From positions 1-64,000 of the forward strand of contig JANCIK010000004.1 of assembly GCA_028532985.1 (NCBI GenBank): a DNA stretch of 64,000 bases, given 5' to 3'. The DNA comes from Stropharia rugosoannulata (taxonomy: Eukaryota; Basidiomycota; Agaricomycetes; Agaricales; Strophariaceae). The notes beneath the pieces are model-generated. The model had not been told where the DNA came from and did no database searches. It was given only the letters and a program-made list of their open reading frames with translations. This document shows, piece after piece, positions 1 through 34,130 of this stretch. The stretch's first letter is position 1. Each line of letters begins with the position of its first letter. The position numbers and the translations under genes are program-made.

Positions 1-113
1 CCCCCCCCCCCCCCTAAACCCTAAACCCTAAACCCTAAACCCTAAACCCTAAACCCTAAACCCTAAACCCTAAACCCTAAACCCTAAACCCTAAACCCTA
101 AACCCTAAACCCT
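1..113. repeat. Telomere, CCCTAAA heptamer repeat (left chromosome end)
   Basis: About fourteen units of CCCTAAA (TTTAGGG on the other strand) run from base 12 to base 113, with the C-rich strand on + as expected for a left chromosome end. The first eleven or so bases are extra C and look like a sequencing or polishing artefact at the contig tip. The unit is the 7-mer rather than the TTAGGG hexamer best known from fungi. The repeat passes directly into coding sequence of the TLH gene at about base 114, with no spacer. Confidence 0.97.
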
Positions 114-3100
114 TCAGACGCGGAAACGGTGCAGTGGTCGTGGTGGTGGGGGAAACGCTTCCAGTCGCGCCCAAGACAGATGCAAGTAATACATGCATCC
201 TTTGAAACACGGTCGAGGGCAGCGATCATGGGTTTCACGATGTTGCGCTCGAAGCGTGCATCGCTTGTGAGAGCGCGAGCACTATCGACCCTCGCCATAA
301 CTGAGGGGGTGCCGCGATCGAAAGGGGAAGGGGGCAGCAAAAGGTCTCGGTCCTGGGGCCTAGATGCAGAGGATGAGGTGCTCATCCGTCCAGAGGGGGT
401 CGATTGGGCTGTGGATGGTGGCGGTGGCTGCGGCGTCTGTCGATGCTGTGTACGCTGTTGCGGAGGGGACGATATTGCATTTGAACCCATGGAGGCGACA
501 CTCATGCGCCCGGAATTTGTGGACTGAGCAGTGGGCGGGCGAGATTGGGGGGCCCGTGGCGGGCGAGAGTGCGGGACCGGGGGAGGTGGCATAGACGTCT
601 TAGCACTCGAGGAACTTGGCGTACGTTTTTGAGATCCAGACGGCGGTTTGAAAGCCGAGCTCGCAGAGCGCGAGCTTCCCGGAACTGGGGCAGACGTCTG
701 AGTCTGGGGTGCATACGATGCACTGCGAGGTTTTGCCGAATTCAACTGGGAGCTGGGCGTCCTTGAAGAAAGGCCTCCATAGAACGGAGGCTTCTTTGCA
801 GGAGCAGCCTTTGAGGCAGCGCTGGTACCACGCGGGGGAGACGGATTGGATAGTCGGACGCGTTTACTGGCAGAGGATTCATCCAGGGAACTACGCTTGT
901 TCGTAGCGGTGGCAGGGGACGTAATAGCGGGAATGATAAACTGAGATGTGGACGGCGTAAAGTCGCTATACGCAAAGTAATGAGTAAGAAACCACATATA
1001 TACATTTAAGAACTACTTACCTATCGTCGAACGATGCCAGAGAGATAAAGATATCTTCACCAGGTGTATCTTCGGGTACCGGGGACAGCAAATCAGGAGA
1101 CGACCTGGAGCGCAAAGCAGACGAAGTGTGAACAGAGAGCGGCACGCTACCTCGCACGGATTGGCTGTCGGCATCGAATTGAGGCATGGCAATGTTGATA
1201 AAAAGGGTGGTAAACGGTTGTAGGAGGCACTCCCTGCAGTACGCGCAAAGTGTCGCACCTGGGATGAGCATACAGGTAATGGCTACTCCGTCAATAGCGC
1301 GGGTGGGTATGATACGAAGGCACTGAATTTTGTGAGTGGCAACCCATTCAGTGATGTGGTCAGTGCCGAAGGCATTGTAGGGGGACAAATAAGGCTCGAA
1401 GGGGACATAGGTGATGCATAGAGCCGGTTGTCCATCACGGCCACCGCGAGACTCCTGCTGATACTGGTCAACCACAGACCAGGCAGGCTTTGCGTGTACG
1501 ACGACCTTGACGTAAGGGTGGTCAAACCCGCAACCGAGAACACTTGTTGCGACAATAATGGCGTCGTTGCCGGAGAGAAAACGGGCCATGGTCTCGTCAT
1601 TGGTTTCGTTGTTGCCACTAACAAAAGGTTCGACTCCGAGGTTCGCAGCCAATTGCTCTGCATCGTCGCGAGTCTGACAGAACACGATCATGCGCTCGTG
1701 AGGTTTGAGCCTTTGTGCTATTTCCTTGACATCGGCTGCAACGCGATCCAGTAGAATCTCACCCCTCGCAATACGTCGAATTTCGTACCCAAGCTCGGGG
1801 CGGACGCAAGTAGACCGGACGACGCGCCAGGTGGTATTTGTGAGCGCTGTAAAGTTGTCGAGTGCCTCGCGAGGAATGGAGCCGCTCAGTCCGATGATTG
1901 GAGTGCTGACGAGATTCAGCGTCGAGAACGCACGAAAGCACTTGCGGTAGCTTTGATCCGTGAGAACCTTGTGTATCTCGTCGAAGATGATTATGTTGAG
2001 CCGTTTCGACGCCTCGAGCGTACACAAGTAGCTATAGACCGTTGAATAAGTGAGGTATATTTAAATAAGACCAGAGAACATACGATTTAAATGTTGCATT
2101 TTGTAAATGCTCGACAGCAACATAAACCAGCGTGGCAGCAGCGTTAAATTTGCCGTTCGGAGTCCACTGGGAAGCCGTGAGGTTGTGCTCGCGAGCACGA
2201 CGTGCAAAGTCGTTGTGTAGAGCAGAGAGAGGTAGGACAACAACGGTTGTCCCTCGTGAGCGGAATAACCAAGCATACAACAGAATGAGAAGCGTCTTCC
2301 CCTTCCCGGTGCCTAGAACACCGAGGATACTCTCTTCGCCCCTACACATTAGCTCCAAGAGTAGCGCCTGCTCCGCACAGGTAAATTTGGCATTGGGGTC
2401 GTCTAAGAACTCGCGCAAATGCACAAGCAGGGAGGGATGGGGCGATATAAGCGAGGGAGCGTGCGGATCGTTATCGTCGGCAGACGTAACGGTTTTGGGG
2501 ATAAACCGTGCGATGGCGTTGGCCATACCATTGAACGAAGCCTCCTTGAGGCGCTCCTCGAGCGTATCAAGGACAATCTTGCTGACACCGTCCGAAACGG
2601 CGTCGATAAGCTTCTCTGTTAGAGGAGCATCTGGTAGTATAACATACATGAGTATATATTAAAGTAATAATAACGATAAACATACTACTATTGCCTTGAT
2701 TCTGCGAGCTATCAGGCGGAGACGGCTCAGGAGCGCGGCCTTGACCTATCCCGACGTGCTTCTGCATTTTGAGTGCTGCACGGATGGCTCCGTCGATGAT
2801 CCGCTTATCCGCGGACTTGTGCTGCTCGTCCCGCCGTCCGTAGCGACGATTGGCCATATCAGTGCCGTGCATCATGGCAAGATCGGTGTACGAGTCTGAC
2901 GTGCTGAAGTAATTACGAGCATCGGGTACGTAGTGAGATAAGGCTGTCATGAAAGAGCGGAAGCGCAGGGGGCGAAGGTCAATGCCAAAGTACGGCGTCG
3001 TGATCTCGGCAGCGAGGTTGCTGAATTTCTCACCAGACATCGTTGACTGCAGACCTGGCCAGAGCTGGAAGCGGTAGCGATTAAGAACGTCGTCGTCCAT

Positions 3101-6057
3101 AAGCGACTTGACAAGGAATTCCATAAAAGGGCGAATGATAACGAGGAAGTTGATCAACTCGTTTGCCCAGTCATCTGTTACAGGGTGCGGAACATACGCC
3201 TTGCGATTAAAGCGGTGCGTCGTTTTGTCTTGCAAAGAAACAAATGCCAGCCGATGGTTCTCAATGCGAAGGTTCCGCTCTGCTGAAGAGGTGTTGCGAA
3301 GAAGTAGGCGAGCGATCTCGGACGCCCTGGGGATCAGAAGCGCAGAGTATACTGCCCCAACAGCAAGCTTGCCCTGGATAGACTCGAGGCGCTGAAGAAG
3401 GGCGCAAGCGGGCTCGCTCTTCCAGTGTAGCTTTCCCTCGTGATGAAAGGTGTATGTCGCCGCCCGTTCGGGGTCAGACAGAAGCCATTGGCCATACGAA
3501 GTGCGGTAGGCATCAAAGCCATTCCGTGGGTCGTCGATGAAGGAATAACCGGCCGCGGCATTGTTCGCATGGTCAACAAGCTGGTCAATTACGAACGAGG
3601 GGCGACAATAGCTGGGGATTTCATCGCCGCAGAAGATATCCTGCTCGATGAGCTGCCTAAAGTTTATGAGCTCGTTATCGTGCATGCGTTTAATGTCCGT
3701 GGTTCGAAGAACATTGCCCTTGTATGTGACTTCGCGGCCAAGAGAGTCAGACAGGTGAAAATCACTGTTGTTGACTTCGGTTTCGCCGATGCCTTTCAAG
3801 ATACGATGAGCATTACATATAAAGCTCATCGGGGTCTCGTGCATCGTATGTAGGAACCGCTCAAGTGGAGCAAGTGCTCTGTTATTAATTAGCAGATGAT
3901 AAACAAACATGTAATATGACGAACTCACTCAAAGGAGGAAATGTTCGCTCCAGAAGATACCTTGTCGACCTCGATAAGTATGTTCCCGCGAATGCAATAT
4001 TCGAGGGCGGCACAGGTCCCTGTGATCTCTGACGCCTGCTGAAATGATCCGTGGGGCTTGACAGATGAATACACGAGGAAAAGGGGGACGGGCGAGAAGA
4101 AGCGCCCGAGATCTTTGCTGCATTCGTACATGTGGCGTTCATGTGCAAAGATGGCGTAGCACGACTGGTGAAAGTGTAGATCTATTGAGTCGTGGTCTCC
4201 AGCGTGAAGAGCAACAGACAAAGCATGGAGAATATCGATCTGCGCCTGGTCAAGAGCAGGGAACAGACGACAAAGAAGTGATCCCTCCTCATCAGCTATG
4301 GTGCGCAGAATACTGAATAGAAGACGGCATAACTTGTCGCCGTATTTGCGCTCGAGTCTTTCTGAAGCGCACGAAGATCATGCTTCCGGGATCGACACTG
4401 ATATCACATAAGTATTATATATTTAATTGTAAAGTAGACGACGTACTCTGGGTAAAACTGTGCGAGCTTCTCTGTTAAACCGTAGCCGCGCTGCCTCAAG
4501 AGCGTGGTCTGGATCAGCGCCATGTAGCGACGTGACGCTTGCTGTAGAGCAGTACCCCACGGCTCTGACTCGGCATCAGGTAGGCGGGTAGCTTCGATGA
4601 GCTCCTCTGGAGTATAGCCACTAATGGCGTCCATCCAGTTCTGGTTATAAAAAAAGGATCCCGTATTGAGCGAATCGTCATCCTCGCGCAAAGGGAGTGC
4701 GCTATAATCTGTTGTCGAGCACTGGCGCTTGAACATGCTGCGGAGAACGTTAGGATCAGGAGCAGAGGTGCTCAGGTTCGAGACGTCGACAGGAAAGTAG
4801 TGACGGCTCTGGCCGTGATGTAAGATCTGCGCAGGGTATGTGTAGTGAATGCGGTCTTCAAGAGCAACGTAGCCACAGCGGTCAAGATTTGATTGGTGAC
4901 TGGACAGCGCCGCCCTCGTTTTGTAACCCCTGAAGCACTCGCCGCAGAAGTAGAGAAGGTCTGGCTCGATAGGGACAGCGAATATGGGCTGAATCCTCTC
5001 GGATGGATAACTAACTTGGGCGAGCGGCAAAAGCTCGAACTCGCGAATAAGAGCGTTGTCCATGTCGACGGGGGCCGTATAGAACGGGTTGTGTCCATTG
5101 GCGTGGTCGGTAATTGTTTGCGGCTCTATGGCGCGCTGGCAGATGGTACAGATGACGACGTTCAGCCCAGTATCGATGGCTATCGCCAATGCTTCAAAGT
5201 TGTACATGGGATGAGAAAGGACCGTGTTCTTGGTGGGCACAGGTATGTACGACGAGTACTCCACTTCAGATGCATCGTGTTCTTTCATAGGCGAGCCCGC
5301 GCGCAAGGGGGAGGGAACGGTTGTCGCAGGCGCCTGAAGTGACGAGGGTTCGGTGTCTGTTACATAGATATCAGAGCATTCCGAGCTCGGCGACACTGAG
5401 CGCGACTGGTCCGGAGATGAAAAGTCGAGATCGACGATGGGCTGGGGCGCTGCAGGGAGGGCTCGTTACTTGGGTTGCTGTTGAATGTAAAAACTACGTA
5501 CCAGGTTTAACTGCATGCGTTGGAGTTGGAGCCGCAGACGGGGCTTGGTTTGCAGCAGACGCGGTCGATTTACCGCCTGGTAAATCGATTAATACATAAA
5601 GAACGAAGCATATATATTAAATATCACGTACCAGAGAAAGAGCCACGGTTTGCAGGGGTGCATGCTGCTGCTTCGTCCGTAGGAGTAGGGGCTGATGTAC
5701 CTACAACTTTGCATTAGGCATATGTCGTTATAGATAAATAATTACCGTACCTGTAGACGAATTTACGAGCCCCGAGGTCGAATTCACAGCTTTAGTAGGC
5801 GTCTGCGAACCGTGCGCCGAGTCTACATGACGCTGGGAGGAAGGTTATCTACAGAATCTATAGTCTGAATGAAAACAGACGAGACATACCTTCATGCTCT
5901 GTGGATCCTTGTAGACAACCGTGCATCCGGGGGCGATGCATTGGAACATGTCGTTTGCATTACGCGTAAGCTCAACTTTGAAGTCGAGGTGCGGATATTT
6001 CACCAGCAAGGTTTTCTGCTTCAAGCGTTTAAGGTATTTGTCGTTGTTGGCGGGCAT
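98..6057 (-). CDS. TLH: Telomere-linked RecQ-type helicase (TLH), 10 exons, C-terminus cut by the telomere
   Basis: Exons I place on the minus strand: 6057-5890, 5832-5751, 5700-5632, 5576-5502, 5449-4447, 4357-3929, 3878-2686, 2630-2084, 2031-1021, 965-98. The introns are 50-131 bp with GTRNGT-like donors and AG acceptors; all phases agree, giving about 1814 residues. The N-terminus has a C/H segment near residue 40, low-complexity A/P/T exons, then two Cys/His finger-like segments (about 230-255 and 295-325), as in the DUF3505-type N-termini of fungal TLH proteins. The helicase core has Walker A GTGKGKT (about residue 1113), motif II DEIH (about 1205) and a motif VI-like QESRGGRDG. A Ser/Pro-rich linker follows, then a C-terminal Cys/His segment (DACITC...HHHDHC). 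The last codons GGG TTT AGG GTT TAG are telomere repeat, so the natural C-terminus is missing. Transcription runs toward the telomere. In other fungi such genes sit at chromosome ends; their function is unsettled. The family is certain, the small 5' exons less so. Confidence 0.9.
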
Positions 6058-21032: not shown

Positions 21033-23947
21033 ATGGACAGTGGTACTCACGCCTTTGACCGCGACTCTTTGTTTGGCGATTTCAACGAGGACGCAATGTT
21101 TGAAACCTTGGATGAAATCAACACAGGCACCCTTTCTCCTAATCCCCTTAATGAGGATCATATGATGTATGATAGTGAGCAAAGCAACCCCGAGATCCAG
21201 TCATTATCTTTGGAAGAATTTGTCTCTGCAGCACAGGCCTTCCATCATGCCGATCAAATGGACGACTTTTGTCGCTTTGTTCTCAACGGACAGCATGGGC
21301 ATAGGCAGTACCAGGTTGATCCCATTAAAGATACGCTTAGGGGCAACCACGCTACCAGCATGCTTCGCGACTATGACAGTCTGCTTGGGTTGCATAAGGA
21401 CATTTGCATTGAAGGTTATCTTGCAGTATTCCCTGTGGCCAGATTCTCAGACACTCTGCGACGCAATATACACATCAAGTATTCGTTTGTAAGTAATGTA
21501 TATTTCTTGGAGTATATTCAGTAAGCTTGACATATCTCTTTCCGTTTCACAGGGAGAACATGAGCATATTCCCGTTCACACCATTCCAAACCTGTGCATA
21601 GGCAAATGGGGCACACACACGTTAATTCGTGCCATGTTTCCTAGTTTATATGACGACCAGCAAAAATCCCCGCTTCTCACCAAGGACCAGCTAATAACAT
21701 TCTATGAAAAGGGCCTCCGTCCTGCCATTCAACGCCTGTCAGACATCTCTGCATCGGAATGGCCACCCACATACTCCGCAGAAATGATGCGTGCACGGGG
21801 AAAGGATGGGACGCTTTCGTTTCAGTCGAAGACTATTCCGAGTTGGCTGGTCAGTAGCTTGGGTGACCATATACGAGACGCTCTTTCAAGTAACGGAATC
21901 ACTTGGGGTGAAGGGCTTATATTTCTCCATCAAATTCGAGGCGTCAAAAGATCCAGCAATCATTCTGTGTCTAGTCAGGCTGCATCCGCTGCGCTTGACG
22001 AGTTCTTCACAGAGAATCACCTTTCGGAAATTTGCTATGAAGAAGGCCATTGGTGGATTGATGTTGGGCTGGAGATATCGTCTCAGAGGGATGAATGCCT
22101 TGCATGGAGGACGGACTCCCATTTCCACGTCGTCAAGCACGTTCTAGACATTCCATCCAGGCACGCGGAGCGCATCACCTCTCCAGGAAGCTCGAAATAC
22201 ATGCGTGATTTAACTTCACATCTCACATCTGTGTCTGGATGTCGAATTTCTCCTGGAGTTCGAGCCCAAGGTCCACACGAAGTGGCATACCTCCAGATGT
22301 ACACCACAGACAAGTCAATCACCTACCGTGAGGAAGGAAACCACTTTGGAAAATTTCTTAGAGGCCAGGATATTTTGAAGGGTAAGGCTGATGATTTCTG
22401 TCGTGACCTATACGACTTATACACCGGAGCATCGGAAAGAAATCACGGCCTTGCCCGTATTGAAGTTCGGGTACCTCTTTCAGAAGCAGCTTTAATCTTG
22501 GTCGATGTCGATGTTGGCATTCTTCGCAGGGGACTAGTGTCAATCAAACCTGTTGTGTGGTGGTGAGTGGGTGGTTTTTGTTTTGCAGGCTATTTTCTCA
22601 CATCTACTCCCAAGGAGCCTACGTGCCTACCGATTGCTCGCATTTAAACACATTCTTGAGCAACAGTCGCATGGGGAGGCAAGGCATCGTTCAACAGACT
22701 CTGCCCTGCTCTTGACCGCAGCAGCACCGTGGTTTATTAATGGGCTTCATTCAACTCCAGATAACGGCCCTGCATCTCGCGATCTCATGGGAAAGATTCT
22801 CCCACTTGTGCATAGAACTGAGGCGGAAGAGAATACCCTTGCCTACCCCATCAGCACTCGTACTCGTATGGATGAAGTGCAGCTTGCTCAAGCCGGGATT
22901 GAATCGCTGGAGGAGGATGAAGAAGATGGTGAAGGCCAACCTATATTTGTCAATTACGACCAGGAGGACAACATTTCTGTGGAATCTGATTGCTCCGATA
23001 CAAACAATCCAGTTCCCCATAATCCTCCCAGCAACCGCCCCGAAATGCTGCCTCATAACCCCTATGGCATAATTTTCCTGCGTCCAATCCGTGTAGGAGA
23101 AGGAATCACGGTTCCCCGCTTCTACGACCACACTATCCCTATGGTAACCTGGAAAACATTCAAATACATCTTTGGCATTCAATGAGAAAGCGTGGACACG
23201 CACTTTTTCAAGTCAAAACTTGTAGTCCCAACTCACCCATATCGTGTACCCAACAAAGTTCGCCGCACTCCCCGCCATGCTCCACAGAATTCTGTGCCTC
23301 CCATCTTTGACTTATCGCGGAGGGGCTATCGGGTACAACGTCCACATGCCCATATCCACAGTGATTTTGAGTCACTACAGAGTGAGATTGAAAGCCAGTC
23401 AGACAACGAGAATGAGAGCATCGACTCAAAGCTAACAGCCATGTGGAACCAGTTTCTTCTTGACATCACCTTGAAGGCACCAAATCAAAAGCAGTCGACA
23501 GACGTGTCATATTGCATCCTTTCTAACCTCGAGCGTCAGGTCGTGTCCGAAGCAACCTACCAGAACATGCGGTTAAGGGACTACTTCTCGGACTGTCAGT
23601 ATCGTATGGCGAAAAAGGCAGATTGGGACTCAGCATTCAACAAGTTCTGGCCAGATGATCCCATTCTATCAGGCAAACCGCAGAACCTTCCTAGTATGAC
23701 TTATTACACGGACTGGGCAAAGTTAATTGAAAGGTTCAGAAGATGCGATAACGACGATATCATTGCAGATATGCGCAAGGTTCTGCGGAAGAGATTCTAT
23801 ATGTTAGGGTGGATACCAAACATACAGTCCGATCGCGTCTGGTATACTAAATTGGACTTAAAGCTTTTCAAAAAATTGCCTGGTTCCAATCCACAAAAAG
23901 CAGCACCACGAATCTTGATCAGATGGGATTGTGTGCCTGTAGTTTAG
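21033..23947 (+). CDS. Large unrecognised protein with one in-frame TGA (possible recent pseudogene)
   Basis: The ATG at 21033 opens MDSGTHAFDRDS. Exon 1 ends at 21488, exon 2 is 21553-22562 and exon 3 starts at 22615; introns of 64 and 52 bp with GTAAGT/GTGAGT donors keep phase. The joined frame is 932 residues and is continuous except for TGA at 23183-23185 (...YIFGIQ-stop-ESVDTHFF...), after which the same frame runs on for about 250 residues to 23947. Either the protein ends at about 677 residues, the stop is read through, or the gene has just been inactivated. Composition is that of a soluble protein with an acidic stretch (ESLEEDEEDGEG) after residue 600 and no membrane segment. I recognise no domain. 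The 3' part from 23216 is duplicated at 29480. Its divergent neighbour is the SNF2 gene. Confidence 0.7.
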
Positions 23948-24169
23948 GCTGTACAGAGTGAGGGGTTCTTTCAATAGTAGCACTGACGTTGTTTATATTA
24001 TTTGAAGCATTTATCTGCATTGTTATTGTGTGGGAAATATGTAATTTGAAGTATGGCATATGGAGCACAGCATCTAAACGTAACCAGCATACTTGAAACA
24101 GCAGAGAAGATTTTATAACATGAGAGACTGATTGCATACATATAAATGTAACAGAACTTATTACGGCCG

Positions 24170-27735: not shown

Positions 27736-27744
27736 AAAAAGTAG

Positions 27745-28596
27745 CCCATAACACTTCAATGGAAACCGTTTGTGAAAGCTGGAAACAATAAGGAACGAAT
27801 TCCATGGGTATCTCATCATCCTCATGACGTCAAACGTGGCGTTTACATAGGAGAGTGCTCGCGATTAGCCGTGCTATGTAGCACTAAGGAAAACTACATA
27901 GGAGCAATAAAGGACTTAAACACCCTTTACGTGATGCGCGGCTACCCGCCACAACTCATCGGCGCGTGGTGCAAGAAATATATACAAGAACGTTGGGACA
28001 AAAGGTTTGCGTTAAAACCTATCGTGCACGACGAAGGCGTCCTTGTCTTGAAAACACGCTTTGACGATGTATGGAATTGGTTCTCAGCTACCGAACTTGG
28101 AAACATCATGACTGGGTATTGGTCAGAGTGGTACACCCGCGCTGAACAAGGTAGATACTCTGCGAGTTCTACCCCAGCCTTTTATGCCCCAGATACGGAT
28201 CCACGCGGCCTCGACTCAGTAGATCCCGGATTGTTTAGCGCAGTCCGGGACTTGAAAGGTCAGGAAGTAATGATCCCCGATCTTCGCAAAACAGGTATAC
28301 TCGGGCGTCGTTGGCTTGTCTCGCGTAAGCGGAACAAGAACCTTTACGACCTTTCAACTCAATGGAAGAAGATGGTGTTTGAAACGCTAGATGAAGTCGC
28401 CGCTAATCATAACGCCGACGAACTACAGGTTCAAGACATGGATGTTGTAGAAGAACCCAGAGCACAGATACAGTTACCTGGACTCGGCACCGGTATAATA
28501 CATGACGGTGACATCTTACTACATCAACATGAAAACTCTTCTGACGAAGAGCAGTATCATCCAGCATTTGGTAGAGCCTCCAAACGCACCAACTAA
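27745..28596 (+). pseudogene. C-terminal fragment of a reverse transcriptase-like protein (RT thumb and tail), 5' truncated
   Basis: The open frame follows a TAG at 27742 and has no proper start. It reads ITLQWKPFVKAGNNKERIPW, then WVSHHPHDVKRGVYIGE, CSRLAVLCS and LYVMRGYPPQLI, then a KRFALKP / TRFDDVWNWF / ELGNIMTGYWSEWY region, and ends RASKRTN at 28596. The pattern (HP..VKRG...GE..RL...CS, later a RGYP segment) is what I expect of the thumb after the catalytic motifs in Penelope-like and related RTs; the palm with its catalytic Asp residues is absent. The frame has no stops, so the insertion is young. The last 60 residues are acidic and low-complexity. Similarity is recalled, not computed. 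Confidence 0.6.
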
Positions 28597-29342
28597 AAAG
28601 ATACAAACATACGATTCAGGACTAACGCGTTCTAAACCCAAAACCCTAACGTATGACATCTTTCTCAATAATTTGCATTTAATTATTGACTTGTATATCA
28701 AGCCTAAACCTAAACCTTAACTTATCAACGACGCAGATTACCTGCGTGTTGGCTCTCATGGCTTATTAGAACGGTTGTTTTTATCCGGCATGGGATGCCG
28801 CGGTTTGAAAAGCAAAGACGTAACTCTCAGAAAAGGTAAATCCTCACGGTTCTTAGTAAGGGACGCACGACACTGGCCCAGTACGCGAGCGCCTTTCGGG
28901 TATTTATGGTGAAAGAACACCGCACGCTCAGGCGGAGACTTCTTAGTACTTTAGGTCGTACCCATACAAAGGGAAAACGAAACGAGATAAGATAAGATAA
29001 GGATGTGGCTGTGCCAGATCTAATCAGTTTAGATAAGATAAGATAAGATAGGACGCTGATCATCTGGTAAAGATATACAACACGCCAACATATCGTTTGC
29101 ACAAGGCATCTTCGATGCGATCTCACCGATCGACGAGATCGCGAGGTTGTACCGCGAAACACCCGCGCAGGTATACGCAGCCTTAACGCTGCCGCGCGTA
29201 GCCATAAGGCTATGCCTGTTATACTTGGCAAATACGCCGAAGATGAAACGATATTGCTACATTGGTACGCTAGGCAGCGCGAAACACTTACTGATATCCA
29301 GATATGTAACGCTGCCCCGAGGCTGCGTCTGACGACGCATCC
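28597..29342 (+). other. 3' untranslated part of PLE-1
   Basis: It contains telomere-like words (ACCCAAAACCCTAACG near 28635, CCTAAACCTAAACCTTAAC near 28703) and GATAAGATAAGATAAG runs near 28987 and 29036, but no ORF of note. Together with the ribozyme these are expected of a structured retroelement RNA. Confidence 0.5.
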
Positions 29343-29344
29343 TA

Positions 29345-29419
29345 GTCAAGTACAGCCACTGACGAGTCTATAAAGACGAAAGGGCCAGCTGGATTAATCC
29401 CCAGCCCTTTGGCTTTGAC
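29345..29419 (+). ncRNA. Type I hammerhead ribozyme HHR-1
   Basis: The core CTGACGA (29359-29365) is followed by stem II GTC-TATAAA-GAC (29366-29377) and GAAA (29378-29381). Stem III pairs GGGC (29382-29385) with GCCC (29404-29407), with a further CTGG/CCAG pairing inside. The cleavage triplet is CUU; predicted cut after 29409. Stem I pairs AGCCA (29354-29358) with TGGCT (29410-29414), and beyond a four-base bulge GTAC (29350-29353), GTCAA (29345-29349) with TTGAC (29415-29419). All conserved core bases (C3 U4 G5 A6 N7 G8 A9, G12 A13 A14, A15.1-U16.1) are present. Stem I is open, so it is type I, the form described in Penelope-like elements. The stem I bulge and loop II could make the usual tertiary contact. 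Confidence 0.88.
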
Positions 29420-29451
29420 TTTCTCCCCTCTCCTCAGCTAATTAGTCGCTC

Positions 29452-29466
29452 ATCGCCTTCGGCGAT
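29452..29466 (+). other. Terminal hairpin of PLE-1
   Basis: ATCGCC and GGCGAT pair around a TTC loop, 43 bases downstream of the predicted ribozyme cut and 7 bases upstream of the C-run leading to CCCTAAAC. It occupies the same place as the hairpin at 34072-34098 in PLE-2. Confidence 0.75.
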
Positions 29467-29479
29467 TTCGCTCCCCCCT

Positions 29480-30210
29480 AAACTTGTAGTCCCAACTCAC
29501 CCATATCGTGTACCCAACAAAGTTCGCCGCACTCCCCGCCATGCTCCACAGAATTCTGTGCCTCCCATCTTTGACTTATCGCGGAGGGGCTATCGGGTAC
29601 AACGTCCACATGCCCATATCCACAGTGATTTTGAGTCACTACAGAGTGAGATTGAAAGCCAGTCAGACAACGAGAATGAGAGCATCGACTCAAAGCTAAC
29701 AGCCATGTGGAACCAGTTTCTTCTTGACATCACCTTGAAGGCACCAAATCAAAAGCAGTCGACAGACGTGTCATATTGCATCCTTTCTAACCTCGAGCGT
29801 CAGGTCGTGTCCGAAGCAACCTACCAGAACATGCGGTTAAGGGACTACTTCTCGGACTGTCAGTATCGTATGGCGAAAAAGGCAGATTGGGACTCAGCAT
29901 TCAACAAGTTCTGGCCAGATGATCCCATTCTATCAGGCAAACCGCAGAACCTTCCTAGTATGACTTATTACACGGACTGGGCAAAGTTAATTGAAAGGTT
30001 CAGAAGATGCGATAACGACGATATCATTGCAGATATGCGCAAGGTTCTGCGGAAGAGATTCTATATGTTAGGTGGATACCAAACATACAGTCCGATCGCG
30101 TCTGGTATACTAAATTGGACTTAAAGCTTTTCAAAAAATTGCCTGGTTCCAATCCACAAAAAGCAGCACCACGAATCTTGATCAGATGGGATTGTGTGCC
30201 TGTAGTTTAG
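29480..30210 (+). pseudogene. Truncated, frameshifted 3' copy of the gene at 21033-23947
   Basis: It carries only the last roughly 245 codons, from KLVVPTHPYRVP on, without promoter or start. Near 30070 the run TTAGGGTGG of copy A is TTAGGTGG, which shifts the frame and ends the ORF at 30124 instead of reaching the native stop equivalent near 30210. Confidence 0.92.
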
Positions 30211-30439
30211 GCTGTACAGAGTGAGGGGTTCTTTCAATAGTAGCACTGACGTTGTTTATATTATTTGAAGCATTTATCTGCATTGTTATTGTGTGGGAAA
30301 TATGTAATTTGAAGTATGGCATATGGAGCACAGCATCTAAACGTAACCAGCATACTTGAAACAGCAGAGAAGATTTTATAACATGAGAGACTGATTGCAT
30401 ACATATAAATGTAACAGAACTTATTACGGCCGTAACATG

Positions 30440-32760
30440 AGAGCCGTGGGAAGCAATTGTCCCACGGAGACATGGACGGGTATGGCGCGCTGGTAGGGAG
30501 TACGGATAAGGCACCTAGGAATTTAGGGAGCATCTGGGAATGCTTCTCCTGATTCCTGTGCCAATCCTAGGTCCACCGCTAGGTCCGCAGAGACGGGCGT
30601 GTGATGGGGAGAAATGTGAAAGGCGTGGGAAACGATTCTCCCACGGATACAGCCAGAAGGGTGGGGATCGTCGATCCCCACTTTTCAGAGTCGTGTGCCC
30701 ACCGTGCGACAGTGCACGGTGGCACACGGACTTCCATTATCAGCATAGTATGTGTAGTATACAAATATGTGACGGTAGTCACTCAAAGTGAAGACACTAT
30801 AGGTATACTGGTCGCCGTCGATTTTGATTTAAATAACCTCTCAGTTTGTATTTATCATCAGAGATGTACTTGATTATAAGCGAGATTGAGATTGACGTTA
30901 TCAAATGTATGGACTGTGCAATCTTTTGATCAATTGGCAGTTCTACCAGCCCTGCTGATAGGGTGGATAATAAGTATCGCATATGTAGGTCACCCGCGTT
31001 GTCATGTTATGCGTGGGAACCCGTTCTCCCACGGTTATGGAGTGCATGCGTGGAGCACAAGAGGTTGTGCGTACTGCGTGCACACGGAGGAAAGTGGGGA
31101 TCGACGATCCCCACTTTTCTGTGTCCTGTGTCCACCGTGCTACATTGCACGGTGGGGGGACTTGTGCACGGCGTGGGGAGGCTGAAAAGTGGGGATCGTC
31201 GATCCCCACTTTCCAGAGACTTGTGCCCACCGTGCTACATTGCACGGTGGGCGTGGATATGTGTACTGCGTGAGGCAGCTGAAAAGTGGGGATCGACGAT
31301 CCCCACTTTTCAGAGTGTTGTGCCCATCGTGCTACATTGCACGGTGGGCTTGGATGTGCGTAGTGCGTGCGTACGCAGAAAAGTGGGGATCGACGATCCC
31401 CACTTTTCTGTGTCCTGTGCCCACCGTGCTACATTGCACGGTGGGCGTGGATGTGCGTACTGCGTGCGTACGCAGAAAAGTGGGGATCGTCGATCCCCAC
31501 TTTTCTGTGTCCTGTGTCCACCGTGCTACATTGCACGGTGGGGGGACTTGTGCACGGCGTGGGGACGATGAAAAGTGGGGATCGACGATCCCCACTTTTC
31601 AGACACTTGTGCCCACCGTGCTACATTGCACGGTGGGCCTGGATGTGCGTACTGCGTGCGTATGCTGAAAAGTGGGGATCGACGATCCCCACTTTTCTGT
31701 GTCCTGTGTCCACCGTGCTACATTGCACGGTGGGGGGACTTGTGCACGGCGTGGGGACGCTGAAAAGTGGGGATCGTCGATCCCCACTTTTCTGTGTCCT
31801 GTGTCCACCGTGCTACATTGCACGGTGGGGGGACTTGTGCACGGCGTGGGGACGCTGAAAAGTGGGGATCGTCGATCCCCACTTTTCAAGACTGTATGCC
31901 CACCTTGCTGTTAAGGGTTCAGGGTTTAGGGTGCACCGCTTCACGGCGCACTGAAAAGTGGGGATCGACGATCCCCACATTTCACTAACCTGTACCCACC
32001 GTGCTATAGCCCTATGTGGGTACAGGCATGACTGTGTTTGCAGCACCCAAAAAAGTGGGGATCGGCGATCCCCACTTTTAATCATGCCATGAGTGATGGC
32101 ACTGCAAACCCTTAACCCTTAACTCACCATGTGCACATGAACATAATGGCTGCATTTGAATGTTGAAATACTAACATTCACATAGAAGTGGGGATCTTCG
32201 ATCCCTTCTTTCCAGTATGCTGCAGCAGACCCACCATATTGGCATTGACGTGGTCAGTTAAGGGTTCAGGGTTCAGGGTGCACCGTTTCACGGCGCACAG
32301 AAAAGTGGGGATCGACGATCCCCACTTTTCACTGTCCTGTTCCCACTGTGCTACATTGCACGGTTGGTGGGACTTACATACTGCGAGAGCACGCAGAAAA
32401 GTGGGGTTCCACGATCCCCACTTTTCACCGTCCTGTGTCCACTGTGCAACAGTGCACAGTGGGGGTGGACGTGCATACTGCTTCCGCACACAGAAATGTG
32501 GGGATCGACGATCCCCACTTTTCAAGAATGTGTGCCTGCCTTGCTGTTAAGGGTTCAGGGTTCAGGGTGCACCGCTTCACGGCATACTGAAAAGTGGGGA
32601 TCGACGATCCCCACTTTTCAACAGTCTGCGCCCACCGTGCTGCAATGCACGGCCGGTACGGACATGGGCGTGCATGCGCACACAGAAAAGTGGGGATCGT
32701 CGATCCCCACTTTTCAAGGCTCTGTGCCCACTGTGCTACAGTCCACTGTGGGAATGGATT
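30440..32760. repeat. Palindrome-module satellite array 2 (~96-bp unit)
   Basis: About 18 copies of palindrome A alternate with palindrome B in the same arrangement as array 1. Palindrome C occurs at about 30445, 30625 and 31012. The most regular part is 31090-31900. Degenerate members (GATCTTCGATCCC at about 32191, GTTCCACGATCCCC at about 32405) and TTAAGGGTTCAGGGTT blocks match array 1 in order, showing that the right half is the conserved part and that units were lost or gained in the middle. Confidence 0.95.
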
Positions 32761-32826
32761 TGCGCCGTACGTGAGTACCCAGATAATTTGGAGAGTCCAG
32801 TGTGCACTGTACTAGATCAGAACTAA

Positions 32827-33005
32827 TCCCCACCCAACCCAACCCACCAGTAGTACCTCTCCCCACCCAACCCATTCCATCCCTATCAATTGCAACCCAA
32901 CCCAACCCATCCCTACCATTCCCAACCCAACCCATCCCTCTCAGTCCCTACCCAACCCATCCCATCCCTAGGGCTGAACCCTACTCCCAACCCTACCCAA
33001 AAAAC
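32827..33005. repeat. CCCAACC-rich minisatellite, copy B
   Basis: Near-identical to 27557-27735, at the right end of duplication copy B and immediately before PLE-2. Confidence 0.9.
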
Positions 33006-33957
33006 AAAAAGTAGCCCATAACCAATAAACCCGATTGCGTATTGCACGTGACCGGGGCTGGTCGTTTACACCAGGTATACGGTTGGCCAGGCGCACCTGG
33101 CCTTAACATACGTATCATCATACGATGCCCTAATAAGGCAGTCGATGTTATGATGCTCTATAAATATATGTCTGGATGAAAGGGCCTTAGGCTCGGCTTC
33201 TTAGTTCTTAAAACCGACCTGAAGTAACAAGGAAACGACGAGCGATTGCGTTGTCTGGAGAGTATGGTCCTGGGACCGTTACGCCAAAGGCTTCGTGATT
33301 GCACTGGTCCTAGAGTATGCGCCCAGGCGCGTTACGCCAAGGCCTTAAAGCGACGTAACTGCGTGAAAGCGGTCCTGCAGTAGGAGGAACGGCGTGAAAA
33401 CGCGGCTCGTGTAAGTCCCAATGAGGCCTCGGGTCGCTTAGTACGCGTCGGTAACTTCTGCGCGCGCGCAGACATCACCGGCGGTGTCACACGCACAGGT
33501 AATAATCCAAACCTTAATAGTCGTCACCCAACTTAGGCACAGCCGAAGGGGACTGACGGCGCAGCAAGGGTTATTGTTATTTTAAGAACAAAAGAGGCTT
33601 CCACGACCGCACTCCCTTAATCGGGACCGCGGGCGGTGTGAACCCGTAATTACACCGGCGCGAAACGTCGCCGGTGGGAGATAGTCATTATTTATAGCTG
33701 CACTCACGCAGAGGCAGTGTATTTTTGTCTTTATTTTATATTTAGACAGCATGAGACGTTCTACTTCTTCGTAGAACAATGGCTGGGAGCGTTGAGCTAT
33801 TCTTAGAGTAGCCCGCGCATGAGAAGCATCGGTTATGATGGGCCAAAGTGCCCGGATGACCTGGTGACCTGATCATGCGGTGTGGAATGGTCCTCGGGGT
33901 AGACAGCGTGTAAACGCATTAGCACCCTCTCATGCGCACAGACTGTCGCCAGACGTC

Positions 33958-33964
33958 TATAAAA
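33958..33964 (+). promoter_or_regulatory. TATA-like box upstream of HHR-2
   Basis: TATAAAA lies 16 bases before the hammerhead core CTGATGA. In Penelope-like elements promoter and ribozyme can share the terminal repeat, so a start near the ribozyme is plausible. Position-based inference only. Confidence 0.4.
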
Positions 33965-33973
33965 GCAGGCCAG

Positions 33974-34041
33974 GTTGCACTGATGAGGGGTATCCCGAAA
34001 GCGCCCTTTACTCCTTCGTTAGGTGTAGGGTCCTTTGCAAC
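33974..34041 (+). ncRNA. Type I hammerhead ribozyme HHR-2
   Basis: The core CTGATGA (33980-33986) is followed by a GGG/CCC stem II with GTAT-type loop (33987-33996) and GAAA (33997-34000). Stem III is the imperfect hairpin 34001-34033 (CCCT with AGGG, AC with GT, CC with GG around TTCGTTA). The triplet is CUU, predicted cut after 34035. Stem I pairs GTTGCA (33974-33979) with TGCAAC (34036-34041) without mismatch. Every conserved core base is present. The sequence differs from HHR-1 in all stems while the pairing is kept, which is covariation-type support for a functional fold. Confidence 0.87.
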
Positions 34042-34071
34042 TGGTCGATACCTCATACAGCTAAGTAAACG

Positions 34072-34098
34072 CCACCACTCACCGAAGGTGAGTGGTGG
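34072..34098 (+). other. Terminal hairpin of PLE-2
   Basis: A perfect 12-bp stem, CCACCACTCACC with GGTGAGTGGTGG around a GAA loop, ends three bases before the first telomeric unit. Confidence 0.85.
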
Positions 34099-34100
34099 AT

Positions 34101-34130
34101 CCCACCCTAAACCCTAACCCCTAACCCTAG
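34101..34130. repeat. Interstitial (fossil) telomere repeat
   Basis: Four degenerate units read CCCTAAA, CCCTAA, CCCCTAA and CCCTAG, C-strand on +, in the same orientation as the terminal telomere. Left is the 3' end of PLE-2; right is subtelomeric sequence homologous to 7.9-8.8 kb. It marks a former chromosome end. Confidence 0.85.

Follow-up and report, generated by a model that had tools for sequence, protein, structure and literature searches.

The window analysed here, the left 64 kb of contig C4 (JANCIK010000004.1) of the fungus Stropharia rugosoannulata (assembly GCA_028532985.1, 48 Mb in 20 contigs, with CCCTAAA telomere repeats), contains two retroelement families, A and B, whose 3' tails carry a hammerhead ribozyme, a CAGCTAA box, usually a hairpin and C-strand telomere sequence, in the same order. 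Judging from their sequences and a modelled protein structure, A and B are probably two families, separated long ago, of endonuclease-less, telomerase-like (Penelope-like) retroelements. We think it likely that their RNA docks at chromosome ends by its telomere-complementary 3' end and is primed there for reverse transcription. The common order of parts, noticed in a preliminary description of this DNA, holds in both tails, and the reverse transcriptases (RTs) of the two families are only 41% identical over 208 amino acids.

Anatomy of the two tails

Between 20.7 and 34.1 kb the window holds a stack of units arranged head to tail, every 3' end pointing inward. The stack consists of the following units, in this order, and is closed by degenerate telomere remnants that reach 34130.

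20700 (at the latest) to 27752, plus strand: element C, first copy, with the tail GTAGCCCATAAC at 27741-27752
27750 to 29483, plus strand: element A, 5'-truncated, with a C-terminal RT fragment, 3' untranslated region (UTR) and tail; 98.9% identical to the copy on contig C7 over 1734 bp
27753 to 28596, plus strand: the C-terminal fragment of the family A RT, from own-genome matches; its frame opens at 27745
29480 to 33023, plus strand: element C, second copy, 5'-truncated at the A join, with the C-rich end GTAGCCCATAACC and no hammerhead found by the descriptor given below; identical at all of 785 bp to window 23216-24000
33020 to 34111, plus strand: element B, 5'-truncated to 3' UTR and tail; 97.8% identical to the copy at the right end of contig C8

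The 5' border of A joins the C tail at 27750-27752, and the first C copy holds, at 23216, the uninterrupted counterpart of the sequence joined to A at 29480. The longest B copy, of about 4.2 kb, abuts a telomere, and no full-length unit was found in the genome. The tails of A and B contain these parts:

29344 to 29420, plus strand: A hammerhead, type I with full stem III; core CTGACGA 29359-29365 and GAAA 29378-29381, predicted cut after 29409 (descriptor, fold, pair table, sub-threshold Rfam)
29369 to 29374, plus strand: TATAAA inside loop II of the A hammerhead, weak candidate promoter (motif search)
29435 to 29441, plus strand: CAGCTAA box of A (motif search, copies compared)
29452 to 29466, plus strand: A hairpin, 6 bp stem, loop TTC (fold)
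29476 to 29483, plus strand: CCCTAAAC end of A, constant in all 5 A copies; its final AAAC is also in the next element
33958 to 33963, plus strand: TATAAA 16 bp upstream of the B core, weak candidate promoter (motif search)
33970 to 34044, plus strand: B hammerhead, type I, its long stem III bearing a C.C mismatch; core CTGATGA 33980-33986 and GAAA 33997-34000, predicted cut after 34035 (descriptor, fold, pair table)
34058 to 34064, plus strand: CAGCTAA box of B (motif search, copies compared)
34072 to 34098, plus strand: B hairpin, 12 bp stem, loop GAA in the window copy (34084-34086) (fold)
34105 to 34130, plus strand: CCCTAAAC end of B, then degenerate telomere remnants (copies compared)

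The hammerhead descriptor (stem I of at least 5 bp, CTGANGA, stem II of at least 3 bp, GAA, A15.1-U16.1, stem III and H17) matched the 64-kb window exactly twice, at 29359 and 33980, and found nothing in 60 dinucleotide shuffles. Both tails possess the CUGANGA and GAAA core, three helices, UH at the cut and an open stem I, as type I hammerheads do. Of 18 helix positions compared between the families, 14 are paired in each of them, and at 6 of the 14 the bases on both sides differ while the core is unchanged. This pattern suggests that A and B carry real hammerheads conserved in two families, with self-cleavage putative. Rfam at its own cut-offs calls neither ribozyme; the A tail gives sub-threshold matches (Hammerhead_3 at 20.1 bits, RAGATH-1 at 13.9 bits), a relaxed Rfam scan of the B tail has no hammerhead match, and MAFFT gives no alignment of the two hammerheads. 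The B ribozyme fold is no more stable than shuffled sequences (z -0.4). A scan of the whole genome with RF00163 made no call on the A and B ribozymes either, and because it also missed known copies it is uninformative on other hammerheads. It is also observed that TATAAA occurs in both tails within a shared GTCTATAAA, a weak candidate for a 3'-end promoter.

Downstream of the predicted cut, the box starts at nucleotide 26 in A and 23 in B and the hairpin at 43 and 37, precisely the ranges first described, while the telomere sequence, earlier placed about 65 bases from the cut, starts at nucleotides 67 (29476) and 70 (34105). A shared 7-mer in the same register arose in 49 of 5000 shuffle pairs, so the agreement of the box is above chance but modest. 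A stable hairpin had been proposed for both tails; the B hairpin stands out from shuffles (-23.2 kcal/mol, z -5.0), and that of A, at -8.7 kcal/mol (z -1.3), does not. The ends of the tails, put originally at 29484 and 34130, also need correction. Sequence common to B copies stops near 34111, the stretch 34112-34130 being a degenerate telomere remnant specific to this locus, and the AAAC at 29480-29483 is present in the neighboring C element's own sequence too. Nor is the module a fixed one: across 18 B copies the hairpin loop is TTC in 10 and its reverse complement GAA in 3, the hairpin is absent in 5, and the copy at the left end of C8 ends in CCCTACCC and not in CCCTAAA. The hairpin-less form retains GCCA-CCCTAAA and looks, by eye, as if the stretch between two flanking CCACC repeats, the hairpin itself, had been skipped. 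As the loop occurs in both orientations, the whole B palindrome is flipped in some copies.

Upstream of both tails lie remnants of an endonuclease-less RT. The frame of the A copy on C7 shares 57% identity with protein P0075 of Psilocybe cubensis across 360 amino acids, and RT homologs include proteins from Agaricus bisporus, P. cubensis and Bondarzewia mesenterica; the predicted structure of one homolog is closest to telomerases. Scanned against Pfam at E<=0.1, P0001 and P0002 gave RVT_1 only and no GIY-YIG; the frame lacks its N-terminus in this copy, and such a domain is possible there. A PDB sequence search returned nothing at E<=0.1, and among viral contigs an RT profile scan found 18 stretches fitting a pattern, none of which was confirmed.

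Copies, positions and attachment joins

Searching the genome with the tails gave 5 copies of A and 18 of B (10 of the 28 matches in the B search were the palindromic hairpin read on the opposite strand). The 3' end points inward in 22 of these 23 tails, and 19 are both inward and within 75 kb of a contig end, zones that make up about 4% of the genome; one of the tails counted near an end is on C15, a 161-kb contig that is not necessarily a chromosome end. Attachment to telomere repeats, inward 3' ends and 5' truncation are traits of endonuclease-deficient Penelope-like elements, and A and B display them. The hammerhead core followed by CAGCTAA, the only pattern for which hammerheads were counted genome-wide, occurs in 24 places, namely 5 A, 16 B and 3 others (reversed-pattern control 5), and core and box are kept in order in 21 of the 23 copies. 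CAGCTAA...CCCTAA is found in 31 places, 22 of them A or B and 9 others (control 20), and the three non-A/B places of the first search are not among them. The first of these searches follows the check suggested in the preliminary description.

The exceptions in position are a stack at 275-276 kb of C10, an old B copy at 2.82 Mb of C9 (90% identity) and an A copy at 3.32 Mb of C7, which is the sole outward-facing tail and stands head to head with a C unit. At C7:3320679-3321559 a minus-strand C tail, joined to a unique gene, faces the plus-strand A body with no telomere repeat between them. Probably two ends capped by elements fused here, or a terminal inversion took place, and this pair is the scar. 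The B copies at the left ends of C7 and C8 have a common 5' border, different 3' joins and a hairpin in one only. To judge from these borders, the pair reflects recombination between chromosome ends inside B.

The 3' terminal letters of A and B are constant, and the sequence beyond them differs from copy to copy. At the joins the telomeric tracts are 5-27 nt long, compared with 83-159 nt at 16 real contig ends (23 ends were inspected, 7 of them without telomere, C12L included). The script gave 6-27 nt and reading by eye 5-27 nt; the script undercounts variant repeats (C10, C15) and scores C12L, which has no telomere, as 9 nt. The short tracts indicate that the ends on which elements were placed were nearly bare, provided that tracts do not shrink once buried. 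Where one element joins another, the tail overlaps by 4, 3, 4, 4, 3, 1, 3, 1 and 0 nt in the nine joins resolved out of 11, and these 11 were chosen for having both sides known; the two that the script left unresolved show, by eye, 0 nt (C6L) and 6 nt (C8L). An overlap of at least 3 nt is thus present in six of nine, while simulated blunt joins reach it in 4.9%. These joins are explained if a 3' DNA end that matches the RNA end acts as primer there; telomerase healing at matching bases, or end joining, could account for them too.

Family C, which is RT-less, shares with A and B a telomere-like end only, and is joined as a separate unit. We counted 28 C tails ending in GTAGCCCATAACC (31 pattern matches, three without C sequence upstream; control 3), of which 27 point inward and 25 do so at no more than 75 kb from a contig end. 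The descriptor found no hammerhead in either C copy of the window. As the three families have just the telomere-like end in common, attachment in this genome does not depend on ribozyme or hairpin. C may use the RT of A or B in trans. Its gene is intron-bearing (by eye) and has 127 homologs at E<=0.001, widespread in Agaricomycete-type data, and its product has no Pfam match above cut-off; C also contains a 97-bp palindromic minisatellite.

Other origins for the shared ends were considered and rejected. Among them were chance shared ends, pseudo-LTRs (long terminal repeats) flanking A or B and a 5'-terminal ribozyme; queries of 1101 bp of B and 201 bp of A matched 3' ends only. The repeated ends '...GGAAGCTATTCA' and '...GGAATAAGGCTAG', candidates for further telomere tails, are by eye better read as ends of other transposons. 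The present telomere of this chromosome end and its neighbors were also noted:

12 to 109, plus strand: CCCTAAA repeats of the present telomere (repeat search)

Helicase-like frames adjoin it on the minus strand at 98-5465, with Helicase_C above cut-off and DEAD sub-threshold, and they resemble RecQ-type genes at other fungal chromosome ends.

Proposed docking at chromosome ends and the probable role of the ribozyme

According to the explanation we favor, the element RNA would carry at its end a type I hammerhead of full length and the CAGCUAA box, followed usually by a hairpin and then by at least one telomere-complement unit (CCCUAAAC), with box and hairpin possibly recognized by the RT. A chromosome that is worn, healed or broken would pair its G-rich 3' end with this RNA end, 3-4 nt being enough, and would in this way prime reverse transcription inward along the RNA. 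The element would be added outside the old end, 3' end inward and mostly 5'-truncated, and telomerase or the next element would then cap the new end, so that stacks arise. Orientation, position and joins fit such priming by the chromosome 3' end on a telomere-complementary RNA end. They fit the self-docking first proposed as well, except that the 28 C tails leave ribozyme and hairpin unneeded for it.

The ribozyme had been counted as part of the docking device, and this does not agree with the copies. A cut would part the element body from its docking end, and in 23 of 23 A and B copies the predicted cut site lies inside continuous sequence (the shortest copy, at C11, starts 5 nt before it), which indicates that integrated copies derive from RNA uncut there and that the cut is off the path to the observed copies. 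Most likely the ribozyme trims surplus or read-through transcripts. In an in vitro study of a lizard Penelope element, ribozyme mutants left insertion unaffected (PMC11167929), consistent with copies made from uncut RNA here.

Two observations weigh against a fixed docking device. The hairpin is missing from 5 of the 18 B tails, and C tails occupy chromosome ends likewise without a ribozyme. It is rather unlikely that the conserved region is chiefly a 3'-end promoter for the inner neighbor, as in Drosophila HeT-A, where the hammerhead would trim the resulting transcript at its 5' end. The presence of TATAAA in both tails (29369, 33958), with the common GTCTATAAA, and the head-to-tail stacking would suit it, but the motif is inside the ribozyme in A and upstream of it in B, no copy starts at the cut site among the joins read, and two short matches are weak. 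We also consider it unlikely that DNA recombination between chromosome ends (break-induced copying, end joining) was the main route by which the tails spread, their telomere-complement ends being old telomerase-healing seams and ribozyme and hairpin passengers. The 5' border common to the C7 and C8 left copies, the long near-identical C copies on four contigs and the 3-4 nt overlaps, which fit end joining too, are in its favor. Recombination would, however, carry flanks along, while 23 A and B tails and 28 C tails keep their 3' terminal letters with differing flanks, and 5' ends vary where 3' ends are constant.

A variant of docking, which we regard as very doubtful, makes the ribozyme a switch. 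Uncut RNA would be copied whole and cap the end, and a cut would free a 3' piece starting at 29410 or 34036 (CAGCUAA, hairpin, CCCUAAAC), a telomere template that, held by the RT, could add TTTAGGG repeats as an element-encoded mini-telomerase. Telomerase RNA has a template-boundary hairpin, and the released piece, its hairpin just 5' of the template, is laid out alike. If this were true, ends would be healed before the next element docks, and the few repeats at joins would be accounted for. Finally, that these hammerhead motifs arose by chance or have decayed and do not cleave, as the missing Rfam call, the B stem III mismatch and the unexceptional B fold could imply, is scarcely credible given no match in 60 shuffles, an invariant core with changed helices in two families and the core and box ordered in 21 of 23 copies.

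Comparison with known systems

In Drosophila, HeT-A, TART and TAHRE form stacks on chromosome ends with 3' ends inward, include an abundant RT-less partner and end in poly(A). The stacks and the RT-less abundant partner have a counterpart here, where C is possibly, by analogy, a HeT-A-like partner; unlike in Drosophila, telomerase-type repeats persist, the RT is telomerase-like and a telomere complement replaces poly(A). Gladyshev and Arkhipova in 2007 reportedly described Coprina and other endonuclease-deficient Penelope-like elements of basidiomycetes as telomere-associated. By this description Coprina resembles A and B in being fungal and telomere-associated, with no GIY-YIG found. Fungal Penelope-like hammerheads are said by Cervera and de la Pena (2014) to be stable as monomers, and if so the long helix III would not be new. 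In Agaricus bisporus, whose proteins are among the RT homologs, Penelope-like elements lie at chromosome ends without telomere repeats and RecQ-like helicases are subtelomeric; the accessible part of that report mentions no ribozyme or tail structure (PMC7473861).

The closest likeness is to the Terminons, or Athena elements, of bdelloid rotifers (Arkhipova et al. 2017, via PMC6431247), which have an endonuclease-less telomerase-like RT, a hammerhead near the 3' end and the telomere complement downstream of it, and which are 5'-truncated and stacked head to tail at telomeres (PMC6431247). At their 3' ends the hammerhead is followed at once by telomere repeats in reverse complement, which serve to pair with the G-rich overhang (PMC6431247). 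As Terminon ends are described so, the mechanism of the preliminary description is already published in outline, and its suggestion of an undescribed arrangement is left with box and hairpin, which differ. Our literature search, whose scope did not include the founding papers, turned up no description of a telomeric tail from a fungus that combines ribozyme, box and hairpin. In Terminons the repeats follow the ribozyme directly, whereas in A and B 66-69 nt with the box and usually the hairpin lie between; hammerheads of Penelope-like elements and Terminons are described as minimal and without helix III (PMC7761336), which in A and B is long. The Terminon unit is giant, up to 40 kb with accessory genes accompanying the RT; no such unit was shown here, though C is an RT-less neighbor with its own gene. 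New in relation to Terminons would be the intervening box and usual hairpin, the long helix III, the RT-less companion and the evidence from joins. The rotifer layout is in this way extended to a culturable type of fungus that still bears telomerase repeats. It offers two independent families to compare and a ribozyme-less third as a natural control, and makes the role of hammerheads in Penelope-like elements directly testable. The joins record the targets of attachment, nearly bare ends reached via few matching bases, and so bear on how end capping is divided between telomerase and retroelements.
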